This document shows positions 1,797-43,090 of a DNA stretch of 55,057 nucleotides, piece by piece (position 1 is the first letter of the stretch; the number at the start of each line of letters is the position of its first letter). This DNA comes from Bacillota bacterium (lineage in GTDB: Bacteria; Bacillota_I; Bacilli_A; RF39; UBA660): contig SVAK01000003.1 of the NCBI GenBank assembly GCA_015059445.1, positions 1-55,057 of the forward strand, read 5' to 3'. Under the pieces are notes generated by a model. That model did not search any database. It saw only the letters and a program-made list of their open reading frames with translations, and was not told where the DNA came from. Position numbers and translations under genes: made by a program.

Positions 1797-1860
1797 TAAA
1801 ATTACTTTTTTGTTGAGTATAATTTAATTTTTAAGTATCAAATTAATAATGAGGTATTTT

Positions 1861-12875: not shown

Positions 12876-13274
12876 ATGGAAAAATTAACAGCAGCACTCA
12901 TATTATTTTTAGTTTTATTAATTATTATCTTTTTAGTGGATTACTTATTTGTTAAAAGAAAATATTATAAAAGATTAACTGGAAAGAAAAAGAAAGGTAG
13001 AAGTAAAAAAACTAACGAGCTCACAGAAATAGCTTACTTATTGGGAAAATTTAAATTAGATAAAAACAAATTGCCATTAACATATTTATTAGTATCAATA
13101 TCATTTATTAATGCTATTATTATTTCATTAGTGGCGGTAGTAATTATTGTTTTAAATATTAATATTATTGTGCAACTGTTAATAGGATTTATTTTATTAA
13201 TTGCACTTATTTATGCAATTTATGAATTATTAGGGAGATATTTAGTAAAGAAGGGTTATGGTAAAAATGAATAG
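12876..13274 (+). CDS. Small membrane protein of unknown function in the leuS operon
   Basis: A 132-residue protein with three predicted membrane helices: residues 4-25 ([20 protein letters not shown]), about 66-92 and about 94-116. A strongly basic cytoplasmic-type stretch ([18 protein letters not shown]) follows the first helix. No enzymatic motif is visible and no family is recognised with certainty. It lies between the Leu T-box and leuS and overlaps the leuS start, so it is made under leucine-starvation control. A good AGGAGG site (12866-12871) precedes the ATG. Confidence 0.8.
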
Positions 13275-18573: not shown

Positions 18574-18602
18574 TTGACATCAAAAAAACTTTAAGGTAAA
18601 AT
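18574..18602 (+). promoter_or_regulatory. recA promoter
   Basis: TTGACA (18574-18579), a 17-base spacer and TAAAAT (18597-18602). Just upstream CAAAAGTTCGTTTTG contains GTTCG, one half of the Bacillus LexA consensus; a full LexA box is not clear, so SOS control is only possible. The promoter places the transcript start after the ATG at 18601, which rules that ATG out as the recA start. Confidence 0.8.
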
Positions 18603-18630
18603 GGAATTATCAGAGAGTGAAGGAGAAAAA

Positions 18631-19662
18631 ATGAATAAATCAAAAGATGTAAAAAATACAGATAAAGCATTAGAACAAGTTTTAAAAGATATTGAAAAAC
18701 AATTTGGTGCTGGTGCTATTATGAAATTAGGGGCTGACGAACATATTAAAATAGATGTAACAAGCACAGGGTCCATCGCTCTAGATGTCGCACTAGGTGT
18801 CGGGGGATTTCCTAGGGGAAGAATAATTGAAATCTATGGTCCAGAATCATCTGGTAAAACAACAATTGCACTACAAGCGATAGCCGAAGCGCAAAAAGCT
18901 GGTGGAAGAGCAGCTTTTATTGATGCAGAACACGCACTAGACCCAGTTTATGCTAGAAGCTTGGGTGTTGATATTAATGAGCTATTATTAAGTCAACCTG
19001 ATACTGGAGAACAAGCATTAGAAATATGTGATGCACTTGTTAAAAGTGAAGCAATTGACTTAATAGTAATAGATTCAGTAGCAGCTTTAGTACCTCAGGC
19101 AGAAATAGACGGAGAAATGGGAGATAGTCATGTTGGACTTCAAGCAAGGCTTATGTCACAAGCTTTAAGAAAATTATCTGGAACATTAAATAAGACAAAT
19201 ACTACAGCGATATTTATAAATCAATTAAGAGAAAAAGTTGGAGTATTATTTGGTAATCCGGAAACCACTCCGGGAGGTAGAGCGTTAAAGTTTTATTCTA
19301 CTGTTAGATTAGATATTCGTCGTGGTGAACAAATAAAACAAGGCGATCAGATTTTAGGAAATAGAACAAATATTAAAGTCGTTAAAAATAAAGTTGCACC
19401 ACCATTTAAAACAGCTTGTGTAGATATCATGTATGGGGAAGGAATTTCTCATGAAGGTGAATTAGTAGATATTGGTAGTGAAATTGGAGTTATTGATAAA
19501 AGTGGTGCTTGGTATGCTTATAAAGGTGAAAAGATAGGCCAAGGAAAAGAGAATGTTAAAGCTATGCTTCGTGGAAATCCAGAGATGGCATTAGAAATCG
19601 AAGCAAAAATTTATGAGCATTATGGTTTTGAGAAATCGAAGACGAAAAAAGATGATGAATAG
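18631..19662 (+). CDS. recA: Recombinase RecA
   Basis: A 343-residue RecA with all hallmarks: Walker [10 protein letters not shown], the [12 protein letters not shown] region, Walker [16 protein letters not shown]-binding loop L1 region ([25 protein letters not shown], shown here only by its position near residue 155), loop L2 with [20 protein letters not shown], and a charged C-terminal tail. It catalyses homologous strand exchange and promotes LexA cleavage. The start at 18631 follows AAGGAG at 18620-18625. It is a single-gene unit with its own promoter. Confidence 0.97.
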
Positions 19663-27843: not shown

Positions 27844-28434
27844 ATGCAAATTGAATCAGTTGAAGAACCAATTATTGCCATAAGAATTAGTCAATATCCA
27901 GAAGATAATAAATCAGAATTTTTGTTATTAGGGAGAAGTAATGTTGGCAAAAGTAGTTTTATTAACACTTTAATAGAAAGAAAAAATTTTGCAAGAACCT
28001 CTTCAAAACCTGGTAAAACGCAAACGTTAAATTTTTATTTAGTTAATAAGGATTTCTATTTGGTAGATGTGCCAGGGTATGGTTTTGCAAATGTATCTAA
28101 AGAAACGCAAAAAAAATTTGGAATAATGATCGAAGATTATTTGAAAAATAGAGATAATTTAAAACATGTTTTTTTGTTAGTTGATTATCGCCACAAACCA
28201 ACTGAAGATGATATTTTGATGTATAATTTCTTAAAATATTATAATCTTAATATAACAATTGTAGCAACTAAGTATGATAAAATAACCAAAAATGGCCGAG
28301 TGAAACAAGATAAATTAATTAAAGAAACTTTAAAATTAGAAGAAAATGAAAATTTTATTCCTTGGTCTACTATAACTAAAAAGGGAAGAGCAGAAGTTTT
28401 AGATATCATTAATGGTTATACAAAAGAAATTTAG
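27844..28434 (+). CDS. engB: Ribosome biogenesis GTPase EngB (YsxC/YihA)
   Basis: A 196-residue TrmE-Era-type GTPase involved in large-subunit assembly. The G1 motif GRSNVGKSS, the switch region SSKPGKTQTLNFY, G3 DVPGYGFA and G4 ATKYDK are all present, with G5 in PWSTITKKG. The start is placed at the ATG at 27844 behind AAGCGGTGAT; the ATG at 27826 overlaps the -10. It begins a run in which a pilin-like gene and der follow within short gaps. Confidence 0.95.
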   Translation: MQIESVEEPIIAIRISQYPEDNKSEFLLLGRSNVGKSSFINTLIERKNFARTSSKPGKTQTLNFYLVNKDFYLVDVPGYGFANVSKETQKKFGIMIEDYLKNRDNLKHVFLLVDYRHKPTEDDILMYNFLKYYNLNITIVATKYDKITKNGRVKQDKLIKETLKLEENENFIPWSTITKKGRAEVLDIINGYTKEI

Positions 28435-28447
28435 AAAAGGCGGTTTT

Positions 28448-28885
28448 ATGGATAAAAAGGGATTTACATTAGTAGAATTATTAATTACAATTGCTGTACT
28501 TGCTGTTGTTGTGGTTATTGCAGTTCCGTCAATTGGTGCAATTACCCAAAGTATTAAAAATAATATGTTAGAGAAAAAGGCTGAAATAATAGAGGAAGCA
28601 GCAATATTATTGGCGCAAGATATTAAAGGATCTATTATTGCCAGTTCTACAAAATATAATGGATATTCTTGTAGAAGTTTTATTGTTAGTGATTTAGTAC
28701 CGACATATTTAGATAAAGATAATGACAATGCTTGTTTAGATGAAGATAGTACTGGGACTGTGGGTTGTATAGTTGACCCAAGTGATAAAGATAATTATTT
28801 AGATAAATATGAAGTCATTGTATATTACAGAAGTAAAAGAATGTATGCAGTAGTAGATTTAGAAAATTCGTTAAGTTGTAGTTAG
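28448..28885 (+). CDS. Type IV pilin-like protein (prepilin, GFTLVE)
   Basis: A 145-residue class III-type prepilin: a short basic leader MDKKG, cleavage before FTLVE by a prepilin peptidase, a hydrophobic helix (LLITIAVLAVVVVIAVPSIGAI), then a charged helix continuing into a small globular domain. Four cysteines (in YSCRSF, NACLDE, GCIVDP and the final SLSCS) could form disulfides. Glu5 of the mature protein, needed for assembly in most pilins, is present. It lies between engB and der with its own AAAAGGCGG site, so it is probably co-transcribed with these two ribosome-assembly GTPases. Ribosome site and helix strongly support a real gene. Confidence 0.85.
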   Translation: MDKKGFTLVELLITIAVLAVVVVIAVPSIGAITQSIKNNMLEKKAEIIEEAAILLAQDIKGSIIASSTKYNGYSCRSFIVSDLVPTYLDKDNDNACLDEDSTGTVGCIVDPSDKDNYLDKYEVIVYYRSKRMYAVVDLENSLSCS

Positions 28886-28895
28886 GGGGATAATT

Positions 28896-30200
28896 ATGAA
28901 AACGGTATGTTTGATTGGAAAACCAAATGTAGGAAAAAGCAGTATATTTAATAGATTGATTAAAGAAAAAAAATCAATTATTTTGAGTGAACCAGGGATT
29001 ACACGTGATAGAATATATGGAACAGTAGAATATAAAAATAAGAGGTTTAGTATTGTTGATACTGGTGGTATTCATGGTGAAGCTGATAATTTTGATAAAG
29101 ATATATTATTGCAAGCAGAGCTTGCTATAGATGAAGCTGATATTATTTTATTTGTTGTGGATGGTTTAGATAATATTAGTGATTCAGATAAGAAAATTCG
29201 TAATATGTTAAAAAAAGCTGGTAAAGAAGTTATTGTATTGGTTAATAAAATAGATAACGAAAAAAGAATAGATAATACTTATGCTTATTATGAATTGGGA
29301 TTTGAAAATATAATGCCGGTTTCTGCAGAACATAATTTAGGCTTTAAAGAATTATTGGAATATATAACAAAAAACATTTCTGAAGTAGAAGAGTATGAAG
29401 AAGATATTCTTAAATTTTGTTTTATTGGAAGACCAAATGTAGGAAAAAGTAGTTTAATTAACGCTCTTTTAAACGAAGAAAGAGTAATAGTAAGTGATGT
29501 TGCAGGTACAACAAGAGATGCCATAGACACTAGGTTTACTTATGAAAAAAATGAATACATTGCCATTGATACTGCGGGAATGCGTAAAAAAGGCAGGATA
29601 TATGAATCAATAGAAAAATATAGTTTGCTTCGTAGTATGAAAGCTATTGAGAGAAGTGATGTTTGTGTTTTGGTTATTGATGGGGAACAAGGAATAATTG
29701 AGCATGATAAACATATTCTGTCTTATGCTATTGAGGCTGGTAAAGGTATTGTAATAGCTGTTAATAAATGGGATACTATGAAAGATCCTAATGAAGATAT
29801 TAAAAGATGGAAACAAGAATTAGAAGTATATTTTAAATTTGTTCCGTATATAAATTTTGTTTTTGTTTCAGCAAAAACTCGTAAGCGAATTCATACTTTA
29901 ATGCCTGAAATAATTAAAGCTTATGAAAATAATTGTAAAGAAATACAAACTAGTCTTTTAAACGATGTGATTGTGGATGCTGTGAATTTGCATCAGCCAC
30001 CATCATATAAAGGCAAAAGATTAAAAATTTATTTTGTAAATCAAACAGAGAGTAGACCACCTAAGTTTACTTTTCAAGTTAACAATAAAAAATTAGTTCA
30101 TTTCTCTTATGAAAGATATTTAGAAAATAAAATAAGAGAATCTTTTGATTTACAAGGAACACCAATTATATTACAGTTTAAAAATAAAAGTGATAAGTAG
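28896..30200 (+). CDS. der: Ribosome biogenesis GTPase Der (EngA)
   Basis: A 434-residue protein with two tandem GTPase domains and a C-terminal KH-like domain, the unique layout of Der. The first domain has GKPNVGKSS, DTGGIHGE and NKID; the second has GRPNVGKSS, DTAGMRKKG and NKWD. The KH-like end contains PPSYKGKRLKIYFVNQ and the terminal IILQFKNKSDK. It acts in 50S subunit maturation. The terminator overlaps the stop codon. Confidence 0.97.
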   Translation: MKTVCLIGKPNVGKSSIFNRLIKEKKSIILSEPGITRDRIYGTVEYKNKRFSIVDTGGIHGEADNFDKDILLQAELAIDEADIILFVVDGLDNISDSDKKIRNMLKKAGKEVIVLVNKIDNEKRIDNTYAYYELGFENIMPVSAEHNLGFKELLEYITKNISEVEEYEEDILKFCFIGRPNVGKSSLINALLNEERVIVSDVAGTTRDAIDTRFTYEKNEYIAIDTAGMRKKGRIYESIEKYSLLRSMKAIERSDVCVLVIDGEQGIIEHDKHILSYAIEAGKGIVIAVNKWDTMKDPNEDIKRWKQELEVYFKFVPYINFVFVSAKTRKRIHTLMPEIIKAYENNCKEIQTSLLNDVIVDAVNLHQPPSYKGKRLKIYFVNQTESRPPKFTFQVNNKKLVHFSYERYLENKIRESFDLQGTPIILQFKNKSDK

Positions 30201-30216
30201 AGCTTATCACTTTTTT
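30187..30216 (+). terminator. Terminator of engB-pilin-der
   Basis: AAAGTGATAAG (30187-30197) pairs with CTTATCACTTT around TAGAG, with six T. Confidence 0.88.
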
Positions 30217-30312
30217 GTAAACTTATTTATATTTATAATCTTGTTTATTAAATTAAATGCTTTATGTAAAAAATTAATAATAAAAAAATAGCATAATTTT
30301 TCATAAAAATGA

Positions 30313-30341
30313 TTGACACCTGAAAATTAATTTTGTAGAAT
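30313..30341 (+). promoter_or_regulatory. Strong promoter of the TasA-like gene
   Basis: TTGACA (30313-30318), a 17-base spacer and TAGAAT (30336-30341). The leader of about 50 bases ends in the near-perfect ribosome site GAGAGGAGGG, which points to high expression. Confidence 0.8.
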
Positions 30342-30398
30342 TAATGTAGAAATATAGAAGATAGTATTTCGGAATATGAAATTGAGAGGAGGGAAATA

Positions 30399-31058
30399 AT
30401 GGATAAGAAAAACACAATGTTATTAACAGTAATCGCTGTAGCTACTTTATTAGTTGCTGTAGTTGGTGCAACATTTGCATACTTCACAGCTTCAAATAAT
30501 GCTTCTGGTACTACTGTAATCGAAACAACTACAGAAGCTGTAGGTTCAATTACACTTACTGGTGGTAAAGAAATGCATTTAACTTTATTAGAAAATGACA
30601 TGACTCAAGCTACTGCTGGCGAAAGTGGTAAAGTTTTCTGGGCAACTGCTGGTGATGATAATTTTGTAGCAGATAGAGAAAACGTAGCTGTTTCTACATT
30701 AAAGATTACTGGTGGTGAATCAACTACAAACTATTCTTGTAGTTATACATTAACTGTAGCTAAAACTGGAGATGCTGCTTTATTAGAAGCTGGAGATGCT
30801 GAACTTTATGTTACTGCAAATAATGCTACAATCGCTGGTTTAGATACTGCTAATGCTATTGATATTACAGAATTAGAAGCAAAAGACTATACAGTTGAAT
30901 TTACTAGAACTGGTAATACTACAGAGGAAAATGGAGAAATAGTTGTTTCTGCAGCTATGAAATTCACTAACAAATCAACTGAACAAGACCATTTTGCTGG
31001 TAAAGATTTTGGTGTATCATTTGAAAACTCTGATTTAAATTGTTCAATTGTTGATTAG
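30399..31058 (+). CDS. TasA/camelysin-like secreted protein with SipW-type signal peptide
   Basis: A 219-residue exported protein. The N-terminus has a short MDKKN leader, a hydrophobic segment (residues 7-27, LLTVIAVATLLVAVVGATFAY) and the ATFAYFTAS boundary typical of SipW-dependent signal peptides of the TasA/CalY family. The mature part is rich in Thr, Ala and beta-strand patterns, with two cysteines (NYSCSYT and the final NCSIVD). TasA-family proteins form biofilm matrix fibres in Bacillus; by analogy this could be an abundant surface or matrix fibre protein. The very strong promoter and ribosome site fit that. No sipW gene is next to it. Confidence 0.75.
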   Translation: MDKKNTMLLTVIAVATLLVAVVGATFAYFTASNNASGTTVIETTTEAVGSITLTGGKEMHLTLLENDMTQATAGESGKVFWATAGDDNFVADRENVAVSTLKITGGESTTNYSCSYTLTVAKTGDAALLEAGDAELYVTANNATIAGLDTANAIDITELEAKDYTVEFTRTGNTTEENGEIVVSAAMKFTNKSTEQDHFAGKDFGVSFENSDLNCSIVD

Positions 31059-31090
31059 TGATATCCATTATTTGAGAGTTAATCTCGTTT

Positions 31091-31120
31091 AAAAAGAAGA
31101 AGTATTATCTTCTTTTTTTG
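31091..31120 (+). terminator. Terminator of the TasA-like gene
   Basis: AAAAAGAAGA (31091-31100) pairs with TCTTCTTTTT, with a 7-base loop and a long T run. Confidence 0.88.
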
Positions 31121-31179
31121 TGTTTAAAAAGCCTACACTAAACAAAACATTAAACATTTAAATATAGTAGGGTGTTTAA

Positions 31180-31980
31180 ATGATAAATTTTTATATTAAT
31201 TCGTCAGTTTATGTTCAAGTTTTAGTAGCTACATTTCTGACTTGGGGAATAACCGCATTAGGAGCTAGTATTGTTTTCTTTTTTAAAAAGGTAAATGGTA
31301 ATGTTTTAGATGCTATGTTGGGTTTATCTGCTGGAGTTATGATATCAGCTTCTTTTTGGTCATTGCTGAATCCAGCAATAAATCAAGCTGATGCTTTAGG
31401 AATGAACTCTTGGCTTATTGTATCAATTGGTTTTTTTACAGGAGGCCTAGTTTTAATTCTTGGTGACATTTTATTTGAAAAAATATTAACTAAGAAAAAA
31501 AGAAAAAATTCATATAGTATGAAGAGAAGTTTAATGTTAATTTTTTCGATAACGCTTCATAATATTCCTGAAGGGCTTGCTATTGGTGTTGCTTTTGGGT
31601 CAATTGCACTAGGTGTTGATGGTGCCACTTTAGCCTCAGCTTTTATGTTAGCTGTTGGAGTAGGAATTCAAAATTTTCCTGAAGGAACCTCAGTTAGTCT
31701 TCCGCTTCGCAGAGAAAAATTTAGTAGAAAAAAAGCTTTTATTTATGGAGCATTAAGTGGTATTGTTGAACCTATTGCTGGTTTGGTGGGATGTATACTA
31801 GTTATATATGTTCAAAATATTTTACCTTTCTTTTTAGCTTTTGCTGCTGGGGCTATGATTTACGTTGCTATGAGTGAACTTATACCAGAAAGTCAAAAAA
31901 ATCCTCATAAAAATTTAATGTCTTTATTTACAATACTAGGCTTTGTAATTATGATGATGTTAGATGTTGCATTAGGTTAA
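31180..31980 (+). CDS. ZIP-family divalent metal transporter
   Basis: A 266-residue inner-membrane protein with about eight membrane helices. The ZIP signature lies in helices 4 and 5: SITLHNIPEGLAIGVAFGS and GIQNFPEGTSVSLPLR, with the metal-binding His/Asn-Pro-Glu-Gly pairs, then GALSGIVEPIAGLVG. It most resembles the GufA/ZupT group that imports zinc and other divalent metals. A histidine-poor, lysine-rich cytoplasmic loop (TKKKRKNSYSMKR) lies between helices 3 and 4. It is monocistronic between two strong terminators. Confidence 0.93.
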   Translation: MINFYINSSVYVQVLVATFLTWGITALGASIVFFFKKVNGNVLDAMLGLSAGVMISASFWSLLNPAINQADALGMNSWLIVSIGFFTGGLVLILGDILFEKILTKKKRKNSYSMKRSLMLIFSITLHNIPEGLAIGVAFGSIALGVDGATLASAFMLAVGVGIQNFPEGTSVSLPLRREKFSRKKAFIYGALSGIVEPIAGLVGCILVIYVQNILPFFLAFAAGAMIYVAMSELIPESQKNPHKNLMSLFTILGFVIMMMLDVALG

Positions 31981-32030
31981 AATAAAAACAAATAATCATT
32001 TAACGTCGTGATTATTTGTTTTTATTTTTG
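31981..32030 (+). terminator. Long hairpin terminator after the ZIP gene
   Basis: An 18-bp perfect stem (31981-31998 with 32009-32026, core ACAAATAATCA/TGATTATTTGT), a 10-base loop and a T-rich tail. Confidence 0.85.
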
Positions 32031-32076
32031 TTGTATTAAATATTTAAATAAGTTAAAATTAAAATAGGTGGAAAAT

Positions 32077-33060
32077 ATGGATAGTAAGGGTTTTACTTTA
32101 ATAGAGTTATTGATGTCAATTGTAGTACTAGCTTTAATATTTGGAATTGCTATTCCAGGAGTTAATAGTATTTCATCTGCAATTAGAAAAAGCCAAAGGG
32201 AAAATTTAGTGGAAAGAATAGAAGTGGCTGCTTCTAAATATGCTTTTGATACTGGTAAAACTTTGATTTTTGTTGATGAGTTGGTGGAAGAAGGTTATAT
32301 CGAGAGTGATGACAGAGAAGGTAATATTATTGACCCAACTAACAACGACAGAATGAATTGTTATGTAGTAGAAATGAAAAAAACAAGTGAGTATTATAAT
32401 GCCCAATTTATTGATAAAACCAATTACGATGATAATGGCATATGTGATTTAAGCAAACTTCAAGAAGATAACGCTAGCATTGATATTTTGGCATCTAATT
32501 CTAAAGGGACTATAAGTAATGTTAGTAACTGGTTAAATGGTAATATTGATGGTGCAATTACTTTGCAAGCTTTAAGTGACAGTGTTGATATTGATTGTGA
32601 AGTTAATAAATGTGTTTGGTCTAGCAGCAGTGGAGCTCATATTGTAGGCAGCAATCTAATTAAATTAGATAATATAAATGCAACACTTAATACTAAATAT
32701 ACTTTTCAAATTACGATTTATGATGATAGTTCATCTGAAGTAAAAAGATATAAATCTAGTATCGATTTGAAAATTGATAATGAAGCCCCTATCATTTATG
32801 AAAATCAAATAACTGTTACAAATAAGTTTATTTATACTAGTAGTAAAGATGTAAATGTTGTAGCAAGTGATAGGAATGGTTCAGGAATAAGTGGATATTA
32901 TTTAGAGCTTCATAATGGTCAACTATGTAATAGTGCTTCTATAAGTTTTCAAACTAGTAATAAATTTACTATAAATGATAACGGAACATATTTAATCTGT
33001 GTTAAAGATAATGTTGGAAACATAAGTGCAAGTAGTTTAGAAATATCATATATTCAATAA
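32077..33060 (+). CDS. Large pilin-like protein with C-terminal Ig-like domain
   Basis: A 327-residue prepilin-type protein. It starts MDSKG, with cleavage before FTLIELL, and the pilin helix LMSIVVLALIFGIAIPGV; Glu5 is present. After a pilin-like domain of about 120 residues follow a serine/asparagine-rich region and a C-terminal bacterial Ig-like module: DNEAPIIYEN, SSKDVNVVASDRNGSGISGYYL and the closing NGTYLICVKDNVGN. This is the pattern of a minor or tip pilin carrying an adhesion or spacer domain. The start is at ATG 32077 behind AGGTGG; the GTG at 32068 lies inside that site. It is a separate unit with its own terminator, just before the tandem pilin genes. Confidence 0.82.
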   Translation: MDSKGFTLIELLMSIVVLALIFGIAIPGVNSISSAIRKSQRENLVERIEVAASKYAFDTGKTLIFVDELVEEGYIESDDREGNIIDPTNNDRMNCYVVEMKKTSEYYNAQFIDKTNYDDNGICDLSKLQEDNASIDILASNSKGTISNVSNWLNGNIDGAITLQALSDSVDIDCEVNKCVWSSSSGAHIVGSNLIKLDNINATLNTKYTFQITIYDDSSSEVKRYKSSIDLKIDNEAPIIYENQITVTNKFIYTSSKDVNVVASDRNGSGISGYYLELHNGQLCNSASISFQTSNKFTINDNGTYLICVKDNVGNISASSLEISYIQ

Positions 33061-33088
33061 GTTGTTGATTTTTTAACAACTTTTTTTG
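33059..33088 (+). terminator. Terminator after the Ig-domain pilin
   Basis: AAGTTGTT and AACAACTT form the stem, with seven T following. Confidence 0.85.
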
Positions 33089-33116
33089 AAGAAAATACTA
33101 TTTGGTATTGTAAAAA

Positions 33117-33159
33117 GGTATCCTTTGTAATTGACAAGGTATAATAATTATTGTAAGAT
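33117..33159 (+). promoter_or_regulatory. Promoter region of the tandem pilin operon
   Basis: TTGACA at 33131-33136 with TAAGAT 17 bases later (33154-33159). A consensus TATAAT also lies at 33140-33145, but with no good -35. Either could be used. A short AAAGG-TAT-CCTTT inverted repeat just upstream may be an operator. Confidence 0.55.
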
Positions 33160-33186
33160 TATTTTAGAGGATAGAGGTGAATATTA

Positions 33187-33681
33187 ATGAAAGTTTTAAA
33201 TGAGAAGAAAGGTTTTACATTAATTGAATTATTAGCAGTAATCGTTGTTTTAGCAATAGTAATGGTACTTGCAGCAACAACAGTATTACCATATATGGCT
33301 AATGCTAGAAAACAAGCTTTTGCTACTGAAGCAGAAACTGTGAAGAAGGCAGCTTCTCAAGCAGTTAGTTTAATAGGCATTGGTTCAGTAACAGATGCTA
33401 GCAAATACACAAAGACAACAAACGGGTATTGTTTTACTGTACAAAATCTTAAAGATTTAGGATTGTTTGAAAAAGATGATGCTAATTATGCTGGAGTTGT
33501 TGAAGTGACGAAGTCAGGAAATAATTATACTTATTTAGTAAAAATGAAAAATAGTGAATTTTATGTGTCACAAACAACAGCAGGTAGTATAAATGCAACA
33601 TCTGATGTTAAAGATGTGACTACAGGAGATGCTGCAAAACCTACTACTACTGAAGTTCCAAGTACATGTACATCTAGCTAG
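33187..33681 (+). CDS. Tandem type IV pilin 1
   Basis: A 164-residue prepilin: leader MKVLNEKKG, cleavage before FTLIELLAVIVV, helix to about residue 35, then an alpha-helical spine (NARKQAFATEAETVKKAAS) and a C-terminal beta domain with two cysteines (GYCFTV and the terminal STCTSS), spaced as in pilins with a C-terminal D-loop. The first 60 or so codons after the leader are nearly identical at DNA level to the next gene. The three pilin genes are about 10 bases apart and share one promoter and one terminator, so they form an operon. Major-pilin-like size and high copy suggest a filament subunit. Confidence 0.88.
   Translation: MKVLNEKKGFTLIELLAVIVVLAIVMVLAATTVLPYMANARKQAFATEAETVKKAASQAVSLIGIGSVTDASKYTKTTNGYCFTVQNLKDLGLFEKDDANYAGVVEVTKSGNNYTYLVKMKNSEFYVSQTTAGSINATSDVKDVTTGDAAKPTTTEVPSTCTSS
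33208..33387 (+). repeat. Pilin 5' repeat, copy 1 (180 bp)
   Basis: This 180-bp segment is repeated in the next gene (33703-33882) with only three differences, all synonymous. Its first 90 bp are repeated without any difference in the third gene. Confidence 0.9.
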
Positions 33682-33690
33682 GAGATAAAT

Positions 33691-34185
33691 ATGAGAAATA
33701 ATAAAGGTTTTACATTAATTGAATTATTAGCAGTAATTGTTGTTTTAGCAATAGTAATGGTACTTGCGGCAACAACAGTATTACCATATATGGCTAATGC
33801 TAGAAAACAAGCTTTTGCTACTGAAGCAGAAACTGTGAAGAAGGCAGCTTCTCAAGCAGTTAGTCTAATAGGCATTGGTTCAATAGCAGAAAAAACAGGA
33901 GAAACTGAAAATTATAAAAAAGTTACTGTAAAAGAAGGCGAAGTAACAAAAACTGGTTATTGTTTTACTATTGCTCAATTAAAAAGCTTAGGATTGTTTG
34001 AAAAAGATGATACAAGTTATGAAGGTACAGTAACTGCGCTTAAAGAAGGAAATTCTTATAAATATACTGTTCATATGAAAAATAGCAATTATTATATTTT
34101 ACAAGCTAGTTCTGGCAATATTACTACTGCAGATGTTAAAGACGGTACTCCTGGTCAGGATGCTGGATTTAAAAGTTCATGTTAG
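33691..34185 (+). CDS. Tandem type IV pilin 2
   Basis: A 164-residue prepilin with leader MRNNKG and the same FTLIELLAVIVVLAIVMVLA helix as its neighbours. It matches pilin 1 almost exactly to about residue 65 (through IGIGS), then diverges in the surface domain, which includes a lysine/glutamate-rich loop (EKTGETENYKKVTVKEGEV) absent from pilin 1. Conserved anchors return in GYCFTIAQLKSLGLFEKDD and the C-terminal cysteine (SSC at the end). AGGAGA precedes the ATG. The split between a constant stalk and a variable head suggests paralogous subunits with different surfaces. Confidence 0.88.
   Translation: MRNNKGFTLIELLAVIVVLAIVMVLAATTVLPYMANARKQAFATEAETVKKAASQAVSLIGIGSIAEKTGETENYKKVTVKEGEVTKTGYCFTIAQLKSLGLFEKDDTSYEGTVTALKEGNSYKYTVHMKNSNYYILQASSGNITTADVKDGTPGQDAGFKSSC
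33703..33882 (+). repeat. Pilin 5' repeat, copy 2 (180 bp)
   Basis: Second copy of the segment at 33208-33387; three synonymous differences in 180 bp. Confidence 0.9.
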
Positions 34186-34193
34186 GAGATAAT

Positions 34194-34667
34194 ATGAAAA
34201 ATAATAAAGGTTTTACATTAATTGAATTATTAGCAGTAATCGTTGTTTTAGCAATAGTAATGGTACTTGCAGCAACAACAGTATTACCATATATGAGTAG
34301 CGCAAGAGAAAATGCCTTTAAAGTTGAGGCTACAAATGTTGTAAAAGCAGCAGAAAGCGCTAAAGACTTATATACTTTAGGACAAGTAACAATTCCTACT
34401 AATAGTTGTGTTTCAGGAACTACAATGTGTCTTACAGTAGATGAATTAATCACTTTAGGAATTTACGATGGCGATCCTAATACCTTTGATGGAAAAGTAG
34501 TAATTACAAATTATAATGGAAATAATCCGACATATACTTTAAATTTAAAGAAAAATACTGAGTTTACAATAATTGATGGAACTGGTAAAGATTATTCTAA
34601 ATATACCGGTTCATTAACAGGTACATGGCCAGCTGATAACTCTGCATCTACTTGTAGTTGCAGTTAA
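34194..34667 (+). CDS. Tandem type IV pilin 3
   Basis: A 157-residue prepilin with leader MKNNKG and a helix identical to pilin 1 (90 bp identical at DNA level), then a different spine (SSARENAFKVEATNVVKAAES) and a distinct head with four cysteines (NSCVSG, TMCLTV, and the final CSCS). It is the most diverged of the three outside the leader and helix. AGGAGA precedes the ATG at 34194; an earlier in-frame codon lies inside pilin 2. A strong terminator ends the operon. Confidence 0.88.
   Translation: MKNNKGFTLIELLAVIVVLAIVMVLAATTVLPYMSSARENAFKVEATNVVKAAESAKDLYTLGQVTIPTNSCVSGTTMCLTVDELITLGIYDGDPNTFDGKVVITNYNGNNPTYTLNLKKNTEFTIIDGTGKDYSKYTGSLTGTWPADNSASTCSCS
34206..34295 (+). repeat. Pilin 5' repeat, copy 3 (90 bp)
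   Basis: Identical base for base to 33208-33297 of pilin 1. Homology stops at the end of the membrane helix. Confidence 0.9.
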
Positions 34668-34671
34668 GTTG

Positions 34672-34701
34672 AAATAACTAAGTTTACTTAGTTATTTTTT
34701 T
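34672..34701 (+). terminator. Terminator of the tandem pilin operon
   Basis: AAATAACTAAG (34672-34682) pairs with CTTAGTTATTT around TTTA, then a T run. Confidence 0.9.
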
Positions 34702-34731
34702 ATGCGATAATTATTTTAGGAGTGAAGTAAA

Positions 34732-35634
34732 ATGATATTAGGAAGTCATGTACATTTTGGGAAAGAACAATTATTAGGCGCCGCAAGAGAAGCCATCAGT
34801 TATGGTGCCAATGCATTTATGCTATATACTGGTGCGCCTCAAAATACAGTACGCAAAGCGATAGAAATAGATTATATAAATGACGCAAAAAAAATTATGG
34901 AGGAAAATAATATTTCAATAGAGAATGTTATTTGTCATGCTCCTTATATAATTAATTTAGCTAATAAAGAAAAAATAGATTCTTGGAATTTTTCTATTAG
35001 TTTTTTGAAAAATGAAATAAAAAGATGTGAAAGTCTAGGTATAAAGTACATTGTTATACATCCAGGAAGCAGTGTTAATTTAACAAAAGAAGAGGGGATT
35101 AATAATATAATTGAAGCATTAAACATTATTATAACTAATGATACAAAATGTATGATCCTACTTGAAACAATGGCAGGCAAAGGCAGTGAATGTGGAAGAA
35201 CTTTAGAAGAAGTAAAATTAATTTTGGATGGTGTTAATAGTCAAAATATTGGAGTATGTATAGATACATGTCATTTAAATGATGCTGGCTATAATATGGC
35301 AGAATTTGATGAATTTTTATTAGGATTTGATAAAATAATTGGAATAAATAATATAAAATGCGTACATGTAAATGATAGCAAAAATGTTTTGGGTGCTCAT
35401 AAAGATAGGCATGAAAATCTTGGCTTTGGTACAATTGGCTTTTCCGCTTTATTAAATATTATAAATCATGAAAAATTAAAAAATATTCCTAAAATATTAG
35501 AAACACCTTATGTTAGTCGTGAAGAGGGAGAAAAACAATTAGTTTTTCCGCCTTATAACTTTGAAATAGAAATGATTAAAAAAGGAATTTTTAATCCGAA
35601 TTTAATAGAAGATATTAGAGAATATTATAAATAA
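34732..35634 (+). CDS. nfo: Endonuclease IV (AP endonuclease)
   Basis: A 300-residue TIM-barrel, zinc-dependent apurinic/apyrimidinic endonuclease for base excision repair. Zinc-ligand motifs are seen in order: GSHVHF, ICHAPY, VIHPGS, LLETMAGKG, GVCIDTCHLNDAGYN, CVHVNDSK with GAHKDRHENLGFG, and ILETPYV. Length and motif order match the family. TAGGAGTGAAG precedes the ATG. Its end overlaps by 10 bases the convergent DUF2624 gene. Confidence 0.95.
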   Translation: MILGSHVHFGKEQLLGAAREAISYGANAFMLYTGAPQNTVRKAIEIDYINDAKKIMEENNISIENVICHAPYIINLANKEKIDSWNFSISFLKNEIKRCESLGIKYIVIHPGSSVNLTKEEGINNIIEALNIIITNDTKCMILLETMAGKGSECGRTLEEVKLILDGVNSQNIGVCIDTCHLNDAGYNMAEFDEFLLGFDKIIGINNIKCVHVNDSKNVLGAHKDRHENLGFGTIGFSALLNIINHEKLKNIPKILETPYVSREEGEKQLVFPPYNFEIEMIKKGIFNPNLIEDIREYYK

Positions 35635-35885
35635 TTAGCATATCTTTGAATATATTCATTATAAACTTTAGTTATTTTACTAAAGTTTTCTTTTGAATAA
35701 TTATTTTGATATCGTTCAATATTAAATAGTTTAGGATTTCCTAAGAAAGTTCTATAATTCTTTTTCACAAAGTCATATGTAAAATTTAATTCTCCTTCAG
35801 AAAGTTGGATATTTTTACTGATAGCAAAGTTATTAATATCTTCTTTAGTCATTCTTAAAATATATCTTTCTATTATATTAAACAT
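35625..35885 (-). CDS. DUF2624 (YqfT-like) small protein
   Basis: An 86-residue all-helical protein. The pattern of a helix pair with TKEDINNFAISKNIQLSEGE and KNYRTFLGNPKLFNIERYQ resembles DUF2624. In Bacillus subtilis the YqfT protein of this family lies next to nfo (yqfS), and here it is the immediate, convergent neighbour of nfo, which strengthens the call. Function is unknown. The reverse orientation and the overlap with the nfo 3' end differ from the Bacillus arrangement as I remember it. Confidence 0.6.
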   Translation of the reverse strand: MFNIIERYILRMTKEDINNFAISKNIQLSEGELNFTYDFVKKNYRTFLGNPKLFNIERYQNNYSKENFSKITKVYNEYIQRYANYL

Positions 35886-35967
35886 AAAATCACCTATTAA
35901 TAATGTATGATAAATTTATAAAATGAATACTAAACTTTTTGTATACCATACTAATAATGGTGGAATT

Positions 35968-37911
35968 ATGTCAAAAAAAAGTATAATACTAGGAATGTTT
36001 TTTATAATCATCTTAATAAGATTGTTCTATTTAAATATAATTGATGGCGATAAATATAAAACTTTATTAGACAAAAAAGTTAATAATTATGTTTATGGGG
36101 AGACCGCGCCAAGAGGAAGAATACTTGATAGAAATGGTGTAATTTTAGTAGATAACATTGGAGTAAAAACAGTATTTTATAGTAAATTAGGAGGAATTAG
36201 TACAGATGAAGAAATAAACATAGCATATCAACTAGCTAATATACTAGATATTGAAGTTAATGAAGGTAGTTTAAAAACTTTTTGGCTTTTAAAGAATGAT
36301 AATGGAAAGTCTTTAATAACAGAAGAAGAATATGACTTATATGAAAGAAGAAAGTTAACAAATAATGATCTTAAAAATTTAAAGTATGGAAGAATAACTG
36401 ATGAGCATATTCAGATGTTGAATGATTTAGATAAAAAAAGTGCTACTATATATGAACTTATGAATAAAGGTTATTCTTATGAAAAAAAAGTTATAGTAAA
36501 AGAAATATCAGATGAAGAATATAGTAAAATAGTTGATGCTAATATAAAAGGAGTTACAACAGAACTCACTTGGGATAGAGTTTATAATTATGGAGATACC
36601 TTGAAAGATATTTATGGAACATTAGGAAATATCCCCGAAGAAAAGAAGAGCGAATACTTAGAAAAAGGTTATGAACTTAATGATATAGTAGGATTAAGTT
36701 ATCTAGAACTTCAATATGAAGAATATTTAAAAGGTGAAAAGGATTTATATAAAGTTAATAAAGATAATACTTTAACTTTGATAGAAGAGGGAAAAAGAGG
36801 AAATGATTTAGTATTGTCAATTGACATTGAAGTTCAACTTAAGTTAGAAGAAGTAATTAGAGAAAATATTGTTAAAGCAAAAAAAAGAGATAATACAGAC
36901 TACTTTAGTGAAACTTATGCGATTATTGGTGATCCTAACACTGGAGAAATAATTGCCATGAGTGGTCAAAAATTAATAAGTGATATAGCAACATCCAAAT
37001 TTAAAAACATTAATACTAATCTAATTAATACATCATATACTGTTGGTTCAGTTGTAAAAATGGGGACTATTAGTACAGGCTATAAATATGGAGTAATTGA
37101 TATAGGCAGCAGTGTTACGGACAGCTGTATTAAATTGTATCAAGTTCCAATTAAATGTAGTTATAAAAGTTTAGGTAGAATTAACGATTTGACTGCTATT
37201 AGTAAAAGCAGTAATTATTATCAATTTAAAATTGCCATTGGTTTAACAAATAATAACTATAAATATAATATGAAACTTGATACAACTAAAGCAGATTTTG
37301 AAAAATTTAGGAATGTATTTAGAGAATATGGTTTAGGGATGATTACAGGAATAGATTTGCCAAACGAAACCACAGGAATAATCGGTAGTTTAACACAAAG
37401 TGATTTGCTACTTAATTTAAGTATTGGTCAGTATGATACATATACACCTATTGAGTTGTTTCAATATGTTAATACCATCGCGAATAGTGGGTTAAAAAGA
37501 AGTCCGCAATTAATGAAAGAAATTAATTACAATGATAAAATAATAGCGAGTAACAATTATAAGATTATTAGTAAAGTTAATTTAGATGATAAATATTTGA
37601 CAAGAATTAAAGAAGCAATGCATTTAGCTACAACAAGTGGTACAGCTAGGAATTATATAAATAGCAAATATAATCCAGCAGGAAAAACGGGGACAAGCGA
37701 AACTTTTATAGATACAAATAACGATGGAGTAATGGATACAAAAACAACTTCAATTGCTTTTGTTGGGTTTGCGCCCTTTGATGAACCAGAATATAGTATA
37801 GTGGTTTTATCCCCGAATATTTATGTTTCGAAAGAATATGAATATAGTAAAGTATACATAACTAGGTATATTTCCCGTGATATTACTAACTTTCTATTTG
37901 AAAATCAATAA
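35968..37911 (+). CDS. Class B penicillin-binding protein (transpeptidase)
   Basis: A 647-residue peptidoglycan D,D-transpeptidase with one N-terminal membrane helix (IILGMFFIIILIRLFYLNII) and the pedestal/dimerisation domain beginning APRGRILDRNGVILVDN. The penicillin-binding domain has SVVK with the catalytic serine near residue 361 (TVGSVVKMG), the SxN motif in KSSNYY, and KTGT in PAGKTGTSE. Its size fits PBP2/SpoVD-like proteins used in elongation, division or sporulation; which one cannot be decided. The ATG at 35968 is preferred (GGTGGA upstream); an ATG at 35923 would add 15 residues of unlikely sequence. Confidence 0.85.
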   Translation: MSKKSIILGMFFIIILIRLFYLNIIDGDKYKTLLDKKVNNYVYGETAPRGRILDRNGVILVDNIGVKTVFYSKLGGISTDEEINIAYQLANILDIEVNEGSLKTFWLLKNDNGKSLITEEEYDLYERRKLTNNDLKNLKYGRITDEHIQMLNDLDKKSATIYELMNKGYSYEKKVIVKEISDEEYSKIVDANIKGVTTELTWDRVYNYGDTLKDIYGTLGNIPEEKKSEYLEKGYELNDIVGLSYLELQYEEYLKGEKDLYKVNKDNTLTLIEEGKRGNDLVLSIDIEVQLKLEEVIRENIVKAKKRDNTDYFSETYAIIGDPNTGEIIAMSGQKLISDIATSKFKNINTNLINTSYTVGSVVKMGTISTGYKYGVIDIGSSVTDSCIKLYQVPIKCSYKSLGRINDLTAISKSSNYYQFKIAIGLTNNNYKYNMKLDTTKADFEKFRNVFREYGLGMITGIDLPNETTGIIGSLTQSDLLLNLSIGQYDTYTPIELFQYVNTIANSGLKRSPQLMKEINYNDKIIASNNYKIISKVNLDDKYLTRIKEAMHLATTSGTARNYINSKYNPAGKTGTSETFIDTNNDGVMDTKTTSIAFVGFAPFDEPEYSIVVLSPNIYVSKEYEYSKVYITRYISRDITNFLFENQ

Positions 37912-39504: not shown

Positions 39505-39541
39505 AAAACCAGTGTTAATTTTTAACGCTGGTTTTATTTTT
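39505..39541. terminator. Bidirectional terminator between the 39141 gene and gerAB
   Basis: AAAACCAGTGTTAA and TTAACGCTGGTTTT form a long stem (one G-T wobble), with A- and T-rich flanks on both strands. The gerAB stop codon lies within it. Confidence 0.85.
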
Positions 39542-40540
39542 ATATTTTAAATATATTAATAAACTTAGGAAAATTATAAAGAATATAAATAATGATATAG
39601 GATAGATATATACTATATTAATAATATAGACATAATTGCCTCCAATTAGTAAAGAAGATACTATTAAAATAATAAATATTAATAAGTAAAAATAAATTAA
39701 ATTATATTTTTTTGGCAAAGCATTTTTTAAATTATTTGTTAAGGTTGCTAACATAATAAATAAATCAAAATACCATATGAAAGCTGATATATTTTCAATG
39801 TTTTCAATAAAATTAAGAATTTTTATTTGTCTTAAAACCGTATATTCTGGGAAACTATATATTTTAAGTAATGGCTCTCCCATTGCAATAACTGTAAAGA
39901 AAATAATTGTAAATATTGTTAATGATGATAATAAATAATCTTTTATTGTATTTTTAAAATCATTGGAATAGTTTATCGTGATGATTTGAGGAATACTTGT
40001 TAATGATGCATAAATTAATGCGCACTCAATAATATTATTTGTTCCATTAGTAAACACTGGAATTAAATTATTAAAATCTAAGTATCCAGTTAAGGATATA
40101 GCAAAAAATAAGATAATAATTAAACTGAAAATACATAACAGTTTGCTCAGATTTTCTATATTACTTTTACCTTTAAAAGTAATATAAATGGCTAATATTA
40201 AGAAAGGAATATTGACTAGTATTTTAGGAGTAGTGGTTAGATAAAATGAATTTACAAACAAAGGTAATAACATTAAGGTAATTATCATTAAGTATAAGTA
40301 AAATAAGATTAAAATGATAATATATATTTTTCCTAAAAAGGTATTTTTTAAATTATCTTCTAAAGAATTATTATTTAATTGCTGTTTTATTTTATTATAT
40401 ATATAAAGTATTATTAAACCGAGTAGGGTACCAAGTAGAATTGATATCCATGCATCTTTTCCAGCGTTTTGAAATATCAAGAAAAATCCTATTCCAAACA
40501 TTGATGACCTGGCAATAAAATAAGTTAATTTATTTGTCAT
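39515..40540 (-). CDS. gerAB: Spore germination permease GerAB-like
   Basis: A 341-residue integral membrane protein with about ten helices, of the amino acid-permease-like GerAB/GerKB family. It opens TNKLTYFIARSSMFGIGFFLIFQNAG and has a conserved inner region around YSFPEYTVLRQIKILNFIENIENISAFIWY. In endospores it binds germinants in the inner membrane as part of the GerA complex. It is the last gene of the gerAA-gerAC-gerAB operon and overlaps gerAC by 11 bases. It is slightly shorter than the usual 360 residues. Confidence 0.85.
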   Translation of the reverse strand: MTNKLTYFIARSSMFGIGFFLIFQNAGKDAWISILLGTLLGLIILYIYNKIKQQLNNNSLEDNLKNTFLGKIYIIILILFYLYLMIITLMLLPLFVNSFYLTTTPKILVNIPFLILAIYITFKGKSNIENLSKLLCIFSLIIILFFAISLTGYLDFNNLIPVFTNGTNNIIECALIYASLTSIPQIITINYSNDFKNTIKDYLLSSLTIFTIIFFTVIAMGEPLLKIYSFPEYTVLRQIKILNFIENIENISAFIWYFDLFIMLATLTNNLKNALPKKYNLIYFYLLIFIILIVSSLLIGGNYVYIINIVYIYPISLFIFFIIFLSLLIYLKYKNKTSVKN

Positions 40541-41606
40541 TTTTCACCTCGAATATAAATCCTTTTGTATTAACTTTTAAGTTAACTTTGACTTCAATAT
40601 CAGCATGTTTCCAGAGTTCTTTATTTTCTTTCCGAGTTTTTTTGTAATAAATTTCTTGAAAGCCTAAAATATCACTTTCATTAGCTTGAAGTAACTCAAC
40701 AAAGTTTTTAATATCTTTTTCAATTAATATTCCAAAATCTTTATTTAATTTTTGATAAGCATCATTTTTTGTTAAATCAAAATTAGCATTATTTTCGATT
40801 ACTTTTCCTTCAAGATTGGTGTTGATAATAATTTTATTACTATTGACATCAATTGAAGTATCACTGCTAGTAATACTAATTGTGACATTTTTGTTATCAT
40901 ACTTTTTATCAAATTCCATTGCTGTAATATTTTTAGTTAACATGTTGAATAGAGCAGAATCTTGTTTACTTAAAGTTGTTTGGTAATTATATTTTTTTAA
41001 TATATATGAATTATCAATAGCTATTTGTTTATCTTTAATACTAACAGTATTTAAAATAACGTCATAATTATCACTAATTAATTTGGCTACTATTTGTTTA
41101 AAAGTTTCGCCAATTACTAAATTATTATTATATTTTTCGTTATCTATTAAATTAACTATAACTTCACTAACAACTGGATGATTTTCACTATTATTTTTAA
41201 GTACTTCTTCTGGAGATATTCCATTTGCAACAACCACTTTAAATTCGCTTCTGATATTTGTATCTCTTAATATATAGTCTGTTATTTCATTAAAATGACC
41301 ATTAATTATTTGTTCACTAATTACAACAACCTTTAAATGCGCAAAATAAGCTTTTTTGCTAACCATATAATTAGTATTAATAAATGCTTCACTTATTGAT
41401 TTGCCAGAACCAGAAACCGTATAACTTAAAAGTGCTGTGTTTTCTTCTGTTTTGGTATCACTTAATATTTCATAAGTTAAATAAAAGTTGTCATCTTTGT
41501 AATCAATCCCAACTCCAGTTATAATTGCTAAATCGTCAAGTTCAATATTGTCATAACATCCAGTAAGTAAAAAAATAAAACTAAGTAATATTAATATTTT
41601 TTTCAT
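40530..41606 (-). CDS. gerAC: Spore germination lipoprotein GerAC-like
   Basis: A 358-residue Ger(x)C family lipoprotein. The signal peptide ends in the lipobox FLLTGC with Cys17 as the lipidated residue, followed by YDNIELDDLAIITGVGIDY, the family's typical opening. Later landmarks are ISEAFINTNYMVSKKAYFAHLKVVVISE and NIRSEFKVVVANG, and the C-terminal domain ends near VKVNLKVNTKGFIFEV. It is the lipid-anchored subunit of the germinant receptor on the outside of the spore inner membrane. Its ATG overlaps the gerAA stop as ATGA. Confidence 0.9.
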   Translation of the reverse strand: MKKILILLSFIFLLTGCYDNIELDDLAIITGVGIDYKDDNFYLTYEILSDTKTEENTALLSYTVSGSGKSISEAFINTNYMVSKKAYFAHLKVVVISEQIINGHFNEITDYILRDTNIRSEFKVVVANGISPEEVLKNNSENHPVVSEVIVNLIDNEKYNNNLVIGETFKQIVAKLISDNYDVILNTVSIKDKQIAIDNSYILKKYNYQTTLSKQDSALFNMLTKNITAMEFDKKYDNKNVTISITSSDTSIDVNSNKIIINTNLEGKVIENNANFDLTKNDAYQKLNKDFGILIEKDIKNFVELLQANESDILGFQEIYYKKTRKENKELWKHADIEVKVNLKVNTKGFIFEVKNDK

Positions 41607-43015
41607 TGGAATCTTCCCCTTGTTAGATTTTTTTTAGTAATTAAGTTGCTTCTTTCAGTGTTATTTTTGTCTCGTTTTTTTAAGAAAGTCTTAAAGAAAT
41701 AATCTTTATTAAATGGGGCAATTGGAGCAAAATACGGAGAATCTAAAGATTTTAATGATATAACATTTATTAAGAATAACATTAGACATAAGAAGATACC
41801 ATATAAGCCAAAAATTGCTGCAAAGAATAAAAATATGTAACGATAATATCTTAGGGCATTTCCTATTTCAACAGAAGTAAAAATTAAGCTAGAAATAAAA
41901 GTAAAAGATACAATAATTATCATAATGGGTGATACTATACCAGCATTAACAGCGGCCTCTCCAATAATTAAAGCTCCCAGAATAGAAACCGCTGATCCAA
42001 AATTAGACGGAAATCTTAAATCACTTTCTCTTAAAATATCACAAATAATTAAAAGAATTAAGAGTTCTACAATACTTGGAAAAGGTACACCCGCTCGCTG
42101 GGTACTAAAATTAATTAGTAAACTTGATGGTATAGTTTCTTGATTGTAATTAATGGTTGCTAGAAATATTGCTGGTGCAGTCATGGAAATAAAGAAAGCA
42201 AAAGCTCTTAATATTTTTAAGAAAGCTGCATTAATACTTTTAATATAATTATCGTTAGTAGGATTAATAAAATCGATTAAGAAAGATGGAAGAATAATAG
42301 CAAAAGGCGAAGTATCTACTAATATTATTATTTTCCCTTCTAGTAAAGAAGAACTGGCTAAATCCGGTCGTTCTGTTCTTCTAATTGTAGGAAAAACTGA
42401 TTTATTCTCTCCTTCAATATAATTTATAATTGTTCCTATATCAATGACTCCATCTACATCAATACCTTTAAGTTTTTCTTTAATTTTTTTAATATTTTTT
42501 TCTTCTGCTACATCTTCTAGATAATTGATGCTTATTTTTGTTTGAGATTTTCTTCCTAAAAATAATTCTTCAGTTTTTAAAGTTTTTGTTTTTAATCTTC
42601 TTTTAATAAGCCCTAAATTTGTTTGAATGTTTTCATTAAAAGCATCTTCAGCTCCAACTATTGAAGGCTCTCTAGTAGAAGTACCAATACTTCTGTTAAT
42701 TTCCCCTTTAACTTCTATGGCGATAATATTTTCATTGCTAATAATGATTGCAAATCCATTAGTTAAGTAAAATTCAATTTGATCATGTTTGGTAATATTG
42801 ATAGTATTAGGGCCCGGTATATTACTATTTAAGTTATTAGTATTATTATAATTAGTTAAATTTTTTAAAATAAAATCGTTAATTTTAATACTATCGCAAA
42901 TAGTTTCAATATATATGACGTATATTTTTTTTAACAAGTTAACTCGCACTTCTTTGATTTTTAAATCTGGAGTTTTTTTAAATTCATTTTTTATTCTTTC
43001 TACAATTTTATTCAT
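41603..43015 (-). CDS. gerAA: Spore germination protein GerAA-like
   Basis: A 470-residue GerA-family subunit. A hydrophilic N-terminal domain (residues 1-250) contains the conserved INRSIGTSTREPSIVGAEDAF-type junction, where GTSTREPS and the GPN..F helix are typical, followed by LGRKSQTKISINYLEDVA and FPTIRRTERPD; five or more membrane helices then fill residues 250-420. The C-terminus is basic. The family forms the main ligand-sensing and channel subunit of germinant receptors. The ATG at 43015 is preferred over the GTG at 43024. The gene order A-C-B differs from the A-B-C order of Bacillus gerA. TGA is used as stop. Confidence 0.88.
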   Translation of the reverse strand: MNKIVERIKNEFKKTPDLKIKEVRVNLLKKIYVIYIETICDSIKINDFILKNLTNYNNTNNLNSNIPGPNTINITKHDQIEFYLTNGFAIIISNENIIAIEVKGEINRSIGTSTREPSIVGAEDAFNENIQTNLGLIKRRLKTKTLKTEELFLGRKSQTKISINYLEDVAEEKNIKKIKEKLKGIDVDGVIDIGTIINYIEGENKSVFPTIRRTERPDLASSSLLEGKIIILVDTSPFAIILPSFLIDFINPTNDNYIKSINAAFLKILRAFAFFISMTAPAIFLATINYNQETIPSSLLINFSTQRAGVPFPSIVELLILLIICDILRESDLRFPSNFGSAVSILGALIIGEAAVNAGIVSPIMIIIVSFTFISSLIFTSVEIGNALRYYRYIFLFFAAIFGLYGIFLCLMLFLINVISLKSLDSPYFAPIAPFNKDYFFKTFLKKRDKNNTERSNLITKKNLTRGRFQ

Positions 43016-43090
43016 AATTATCACTAATCATATTATTGGCAACTTTTACCAAAACATACCTTAAAACATATAATATTTATAGGTGAATGT

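Follow-up and report, generated by a model that had tools for sequence, protein, structure and literature searches.

Three tandem pilin genes in a gut Bacilli genome

We analysed a window of 55,057 nucleotides (bases 1-55057 of contig C15; G+C content 27.4%) from a gut Bacilli MAG of 1.02 Mb, comprising 1,024,123 bases in 18 contigs at 95.48% completeness. Three pilin genes are arranged head to tail on one strand (+) of this window. Pilin 1 (33187-33681) encodes an 8-aa leader, a stem and a head that we refer to as type I. Pilin 2 (33691-34185) is a chimera, with a type III-like ribosome-binding site and short leader, the shared stem, and the helix end and head of type I. Pilin 3 (34194-34667) has a short leader, the shared stem and a type III head; its mechanically called ORF starts at 34179, and the likelier start is 34194, which is preceded by an AGGAGA site. 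The array is adjoined by a long pilin of 330 aa with a GTG start (32068-33060, +), whose stem is not converted and which served as a control.

Terminator-like hairpins followed by a T run were seen by eye on the + strand, both upstream of the array (33060-33087), where the G+C rule of the scan reported none, and downstream of pilin 3 (34676-34701). A motif scan placed a promoter-like TTGACA-17-TAAGAT upstream of pilin 1 (33131-33159, +). Such promoter-like sites were not commoner than in shuffled sequences (21 sites versus 17.4 expected) and so provide no evidence of a promoter. An Rfam search of 30000-36000 returned no RNA family match.

Other features of the window include an inverted repeat (31979-32028) with perfect 20-bp arms around a 10-bp loop, in the gap that separates a transporter gene from the long pilin, and a further small pilin gene (28412-28885, +), which is flanked by EngB- and Der-like GTPase genes (by eye) and kept in related genomes. 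A SipW-dependent-type signal peptide protein is encoded near the pilin genes (30399-31058, +), and a second SipW-dependent-type-like protein is found at the start of contig C17, beside other pilin-like genes (by eye). Elsewhere in the window we found a 942-aa leucyl-tRNA synthetase (13258-16086, +) whose residues 376-495 form an inserted NUDIX domain, beside the editing domain, and a RecA-like protein (18601-19662, by eye). In this genome of only about 1 Mb, a LigD-like gene (1849-3261, +) encodes phosphoesterase and primase-polymerase domains, with no ligase domain matched. Three genes at 39515-43024 (-) resemble a spore germination receptor operon of the gerA/gerB/gerC type (by eye).

The predicted products of pilins 1, 2 and 3 all have a prepilin N-terminal motif (G|F-T-L-x-E) and hydrophobic helix, with PF07963 and TIGR02532 above cut-off. 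The AlphaFold2 model of pilin 1 (mean pLDDT 80.8) consists of a helix at residues 12-65 with strands after it. A Foldseek search of this model against the PDB gave no significant match, and the best rows of a VIA-align comparison were a pseudopilin (Z 5.0) and FimA (Z 3.9), weak pilin rows amid unrelated ones. Candidate assembly genes lie on contig C12, where PilB-, PilC- and PilD-like genes match PF00437 (ATPase), PF00482 (platform protein) and PF01478 (prepilin peptidase) above cut-off; a separate Tad-like locus is present on contig C7. In the 95.48% complete genome, PF00437 had only two matches above cut-off, one by the pilus genes on C12 and one in the Tad-like locus, and no clear PilT was found.

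Near-identical stem DNA next to diverged heads

DNA-identical 5' ends had been noted in the initial annotation and were confirmed by direct comparison. Pilins 1 and 2 encode 60 identical amino acids (33208-33387 versus 33703-33882; K8 to S67 of pilin 1) with three silent differences, while pilins 1 and 3 share 30 codons without any difference (33208-33297 versus 34206-34295). The stem tract common to all three genes, on the + strand throughout, comprises 33208-33297 in pilin 1 (mature residues -2 to 28), 33703-33792 in pilin 2, which has two silent differences relative to both pilins 1 and 3, and 34206-34295 in pilin 3. The remaining long helix, with limits taken from the model, is common to pilins 1 and 2 only (33298-33387 and 33793-33882, +) and contains a single silent difference. 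Since the long helix spans precursor residues 12-65 in the pilin 1 model, the tract shared by pilins 1 and 2 (residues 8-67) covers the whole helix, and that shared by pilins 1 and 3 (residues 8-37, mature -2 to 28) its N-terminal half. The pilin helix is divided into α1N (residues 1-28) and α1C (residues 29-53).

When silent-site divergence was computed along the genes, high identity was confined to these tracts, and equal synonymous identity over the full length was not seen. Where pilins 1 and 2 encode the same amino acid, the codons were alike at 55/58 positions within the helix versus 27/41 past it. For pilins 1 and 3, they were alike at 28/28 positions in the tract, 4/13 in the remaining helix and 17/28 in the head. 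Fisher tests of silent sites in the stem versus the rest gave p = 2.5e-4 (1/2) and 4e-6 (1/3). Clustering of silent sites was also assessed by permutation, using a segment score (P = 0.007 for 1/2, 0.0002 for 1/3 and 0.002 for 2/3) and the longest run (P = 0.016, 0.0001 and 0.085, respectively).

Stem conversion across the genus

Pilin 1 had matches in 36 of the 38 congeneric genomes. The locus was taken from 35 other genomes and pilins were gathered by motif, resulting in 75 pilin-like genes. Six of these represented another small pilin and were dropped (G001_1, G002_1, G006_1, G008_1, G009_1 and G000_1). The 69 genes retained from 36 genomes were assigned to type I (39 genes) or type III (30 genes) by mean head identity to six reference genes per type, and the head tree agreed with this assignment. 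Both types were present in 29 genomes. A type III gene was not collected in seven genomes (G004, G006, G013, G021, G024, G035 and G036), some of which have a weak second match in the pilin 1 search, while others may be cut at contig ends.

The heads form two old types, and the stem DNA mixes both. In the head tree (69 genes, 36 genomes), a single branch with support 99 splits types I and III, so that there is one label change between types. Pilins 1 and 2 are sisters in this tree (support 95), and placing pilins 1 and 3 as a pair was rejected (p 1.3e-4). The stem DNA tree, on the other hand, needed 16 label changes and rejected a single type III clade (p 1.06e-5). The alignment underlying it has 87 columns, which leaves most of its forks open.

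We compared types I and III by permutation in the 29 genomes with both, pairing in each the first type I gene with the last of type III. This silent-identity test, the stem DNA tree and the comparison of close species were all built on ungapped stems. Silent identity of the stems was 589/821 (0.717) within genomes versus 13146/25188 (0.522) between them, an excess matched in 0/20000 permutations. The heads showed no such excess, with 557/918 (0.607) within and 18388/30171 (0.609) between genomes. If an old duplication were all that linked the two types, type I stems would be expected to resemble the type III stem beside them no more than those of other genomes; in fact they resembled it more. 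No within-genome excess was seen for the long pilin's stem, whether it was compared with type I genes (n = 23) or with those of type III (n = 19). Another small pilin, tried as a further control, was usable in just four and two genomes and was uninformative. The head and long-pilin controls rule out genome-wide codon use as the cause of the stem excess.

Along the stem, the within-genome excess started at 0.08-0.11 (residues up to 9), rose to 0.25-0.31 over residues 10-21, fell to 0.14-0.16 over residues 22-29 and was zero at residues 30-33; it stops at residue 26-29. The encoded amino acids at residues 14-21 matched at 0.83-0.93 within genomes versus 0.54-0.65 between them.

Conversion of the stem is intermittent across the genus. 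By stem DNA, the nearest gene was the own paralog for 24 of 58 genes and the ortholog for 31, with three ties, and G005, G009 and G030 showed little or no stem conversion. Comparisons of close species show the process in individual genomes. Between G022 and G032, the type I heads agree in 0.79 of silent codons and the stems in 0.59, compared with 0.89 for the stem pair inside G022. Between G009 and G016, the heads are alike in 0.73 and 0.79 and the stems in 0.52 and 0.60, compared to 0.80 for the two stems within G016. Silent sites of paralogs are more alike within than between genomes next to an unconverted control region, the pattern of concerted evolution. As the stem excess occurs without an excess in the heads or the long pilin, and as heads split cleanly while stem DNA mixes the types, the conversion is recurrent and confined to the stem, about residues 1-28 of the mature protein. 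Gene conversion, one of two causes named in the initial annotation, is therefore borne out by the within-genome stem excess and by the contrast of head and stem trees, and extends across the genus.

The mixed make-up of pilin 2 and changes in the array

Pilin 2 resembles pilin 3 in its ribosome-binding site and leader, and pilin 1 in its later helix and head. The junction between pilins 1 and 2 (33622-33703, +) is homologous to that between pilins 2 and 3 (34125-34206, +), with a local score of 23 versus at most 18 in shuffles (0/2000), and the sequence upstream of pilin 1 is unlike either junction. A type III 5' end joined to a type I head, together with homologous junctions, is the product expected if a type III stem recombined with a type I stem in a two-gene array. 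Pilin 2 is a fossil of such stem-to-stem recombination. A similar layout is found in G001, where the second gene has a short leader and a type I head. Because duplicates from one genome are sisters in the head tree (support 95 and 99), either the event occurred twice or the heads were converted later.

In genomes with both types, the gene order is type I then type III, except in G002, where an added leading type III gene makes the order III-I-III. G006 contains two long-leader type I genes. Changes in copy number, whose absence would have spoken against the initial annotation, are limited to a few genomes: most have two genes, three are found in G000, G001 and G002, and type I is doubled in G006.

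The initial annotation had further proposed that the repeats form a hotspot that swaps or deletes heads. Of this, stem-to-stem duplication is recorded in pilin 2. Head exchange between copies was not seen at the between-species scale, where types I and III are one branch apart in all 69 genes. Nor did we find spare or silent partial heads in the own genome, as the matches to pilin 1 (E-value ≤1e-4) and pilin 3 (E-value ≤1e-8) were the complete pilin genes of contig C15. Head swapping is therefore not supported, and surface variation by swapping is the weaker reading because the head lineages stay separate.

Pilin arrays beyond the genus

A family-wide search identified pilin matches in 142 of 193 genomes, and three pilin-rich genomes were inspected. 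G123 (L209, L210) has about a dozen pilins in tandem, spread over two contigs; their stems are near-identical and their heads diverged. In G189, from another genus of the family (L196-L208), 34 places in a 1.6 Mb genome match pilin 3 at an E-value ≤1e-6. Several G189 contigs end inside pilin stems, so the assembly is probably broken by stems that are nearly identical. Short ORFs of G189 that contain only a stem were considered as partial copies, and this was ruled out, as those on its contigs C8, C10, C15 and C25 are at contig ends. In six tandem loci (eight pairs) from other lineages, there was no stem excess (stem 126/199 versus rest 433/629). Stem-limited conversion is no rule for tandem pilins at large.

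Stem matching and its alternatives

We propose, with a probability of roughly 0.8, that the array encodes type IV pilus subunits that undergo recurrent stem-limited gene conversion, that it grew from stem to stem, and that the stems would be matched for co-assembly. The three genes would encode major-pilin-like subunits, and a pair of them, type I followed by type III, is retained in most of the genus. Conversion from neighbour to neighbour recurrently copies the DNA for the long helix's N-terminal half (about residues 1-28 of the mature protein), and stems evolve jointly within a genome as heads evolve apart. In the present lineage, unequal stem-to-stem recombination also enlarged the array and gave rise to pilin 2. 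The likely route is homologous recombination among the stems, which are the array's only long stretches of near-identity. These stretches may stay recombinable through purifying selection on the packing helix, and conversion may in turn keep them matched. Conversion would persist because co-assembly needs a matched packing helix, with the heads presumably too diverged to recombine. By analogy with the PilE1/PilE2 pilus of Streptococcus sanguinis, pilins 1-3 may be assembled into one filament.

Several explanations dispense with recurrent conversion. One is that the genes were duplicated in tandem recently and that diversifying selection then changed the heads fast; this would fit the sister heads of pilins 1 and 2 (support 95) and the differences between these two heads in loops. 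However, silent sites in the heads differ too (27/41 alike for 1/2; 17/28 for 1/3), about as much as in unrelated pairs of the genus (0.61), and selection on amino acids does not explain silent divergence. Moreover, the lineages of pilins 1 and 3 parted long ago, yet their stem DNA is identical. We rejected this explanation on the head silent sites and regard it as highly improbable. The least probable of those weighed here is that the stem DNA itself is under selection, through codon use or an RNA or DNA signal, which the initial annotation had offered as the other cause. The stem is indeed encoded at the start of each gene, a region in which the choice of codons can have an effect. Against this, stems of different species are alike at only 0.52-0.54 of silent codons, on which ground selection on the stem DNA was ruled out; the long pilin stem also lacks a within-genome excess, and the Rfam search found nothing at 30000-36000. 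An assembly artefact, in which a short-read assembler collapsed or duplicated pilin stems, might be suspected from repeats of 90-190 bp and from the G189 contigs, of another genus, that break inside stems. It is very unlikely to have created the stem-limited pattern, which holds over 29 assemblies taken together, and tandem arrays recur at this place across the genus; the copy number of the present array rests on one MAG assembly.

Two further alternatives accept recombination and differ in what it is for. If the array were a device for surface variation, stem recombination would swap, add or delete heads within populations, as the origin of pilin 2 and the extra copies in G000, G001, G002 and G006 might suggest. 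We find this unlikely, considering that heads keep to their lineage, that the order of type I before type III is broken only by the added leading gene of G002, and that queries with pilins 1 and 3 revealed no spare heads in the own genome. Alternatively, matching itself may have no function, with purifying selection keeping stems alike and chance recombination following as a neutral by-product. The intermittent conversion and the divergence of the heads, too great for recombination, are in line with this, and it is a possibility, if a somewhat doubtful one. The closer within-genome match of residues 14-21 speaks against it and is consistent with a need for matching, without being proof.

Returning to stem matching for co-assembly, a more tentative extension, which we hold to be somewhat short of an even chance, is that stem conversion is a compatibility mechanism. 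Shared stems would then predict filament partners, including pilins 1-3 and excluding the 330-aa pilin, and selection against other breakpoints would account for a tract end at the α1N/α1C joint. If true, stem conversion would provide a sequence-only test of which pilins enter the same filament, and would explain why pilin paralogs are alike within strains and different between strains, as reported for Streptococcus sanguinis. Independently of this extension, the 29 genomes, with the head and neighbouring-pilin controls, show that concerted evolution by gene conversion can act on one structural module of a pilin and leave the remainder of the gene out of it.

Comparison with known pilin systems

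In Neisseria pilE/pilS, gene conversion among pilin copies leaves the N-terminus constant, and heads are overwritten from silent copies. The array described here resembles that system in combining conversion among pilin copies with a constant N-terminus. It differs in that the stem is overwritten among complete genes, and queries with pilins 1 and 3 found no silent copies.

The Gram-positive anaerobe Clostridium perfringens likewise carries multiple type IV pilin genes (PilA1-PilA4), although, according to the accessible part of the report, the four genes are in different loci and not in a single tandem array (PMC6958937). In the archaeon Haloferax volcanii, PilA1-PilA6 are, as here, several pilins with a common hydrophobic helix and different heads. 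The helix is almost completely conserved, and swapping it abolishes pili; the available text reports this conservation at the protein level and does not mention conversion at the DNA level (PMC4371748).

A literature search that left most subscription journals aside found nothing on stem-limited gene conversion between co-encoded pilins or on genus-wide concerted evolution of the stem only. Earlier reports, in the portions available, already describe neighbouring major pilins whose central helix is identical and paralogs that resemble each other within a strain (PMC10628169, PMC11121087), as well as a shared hydrophobic helix among archaeal pilins (PMC4371748).

The closest parallel is S. sanguinis PilE1/PilE2 (PilA1-PilA3 in other strains), where two or three adjacent major-pilin genes likewise have identical central α1 helices. 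As in the S. sanguinis-type heteropolymeric pilus, the window has at least two adjacent major-pilin genes with identical α1N. The accessible accounts describe PilE1 and PilE2 as mixing stochastically in the pilus (PMC10628169), and the paralogs as alike within strains and less conserved between them (PMC10628169, PMC11121087). S. sanguinis, as those accounts describe it, has filaments, mutants, structures and a PilT motor, while the array in the window is known from sequence alone and from a genome without a clear PilT. Compared with S. sanguinis as portrayed there, the heads of pilins 1 and 3 are far more diverged, and the homogenised part is the stem only.
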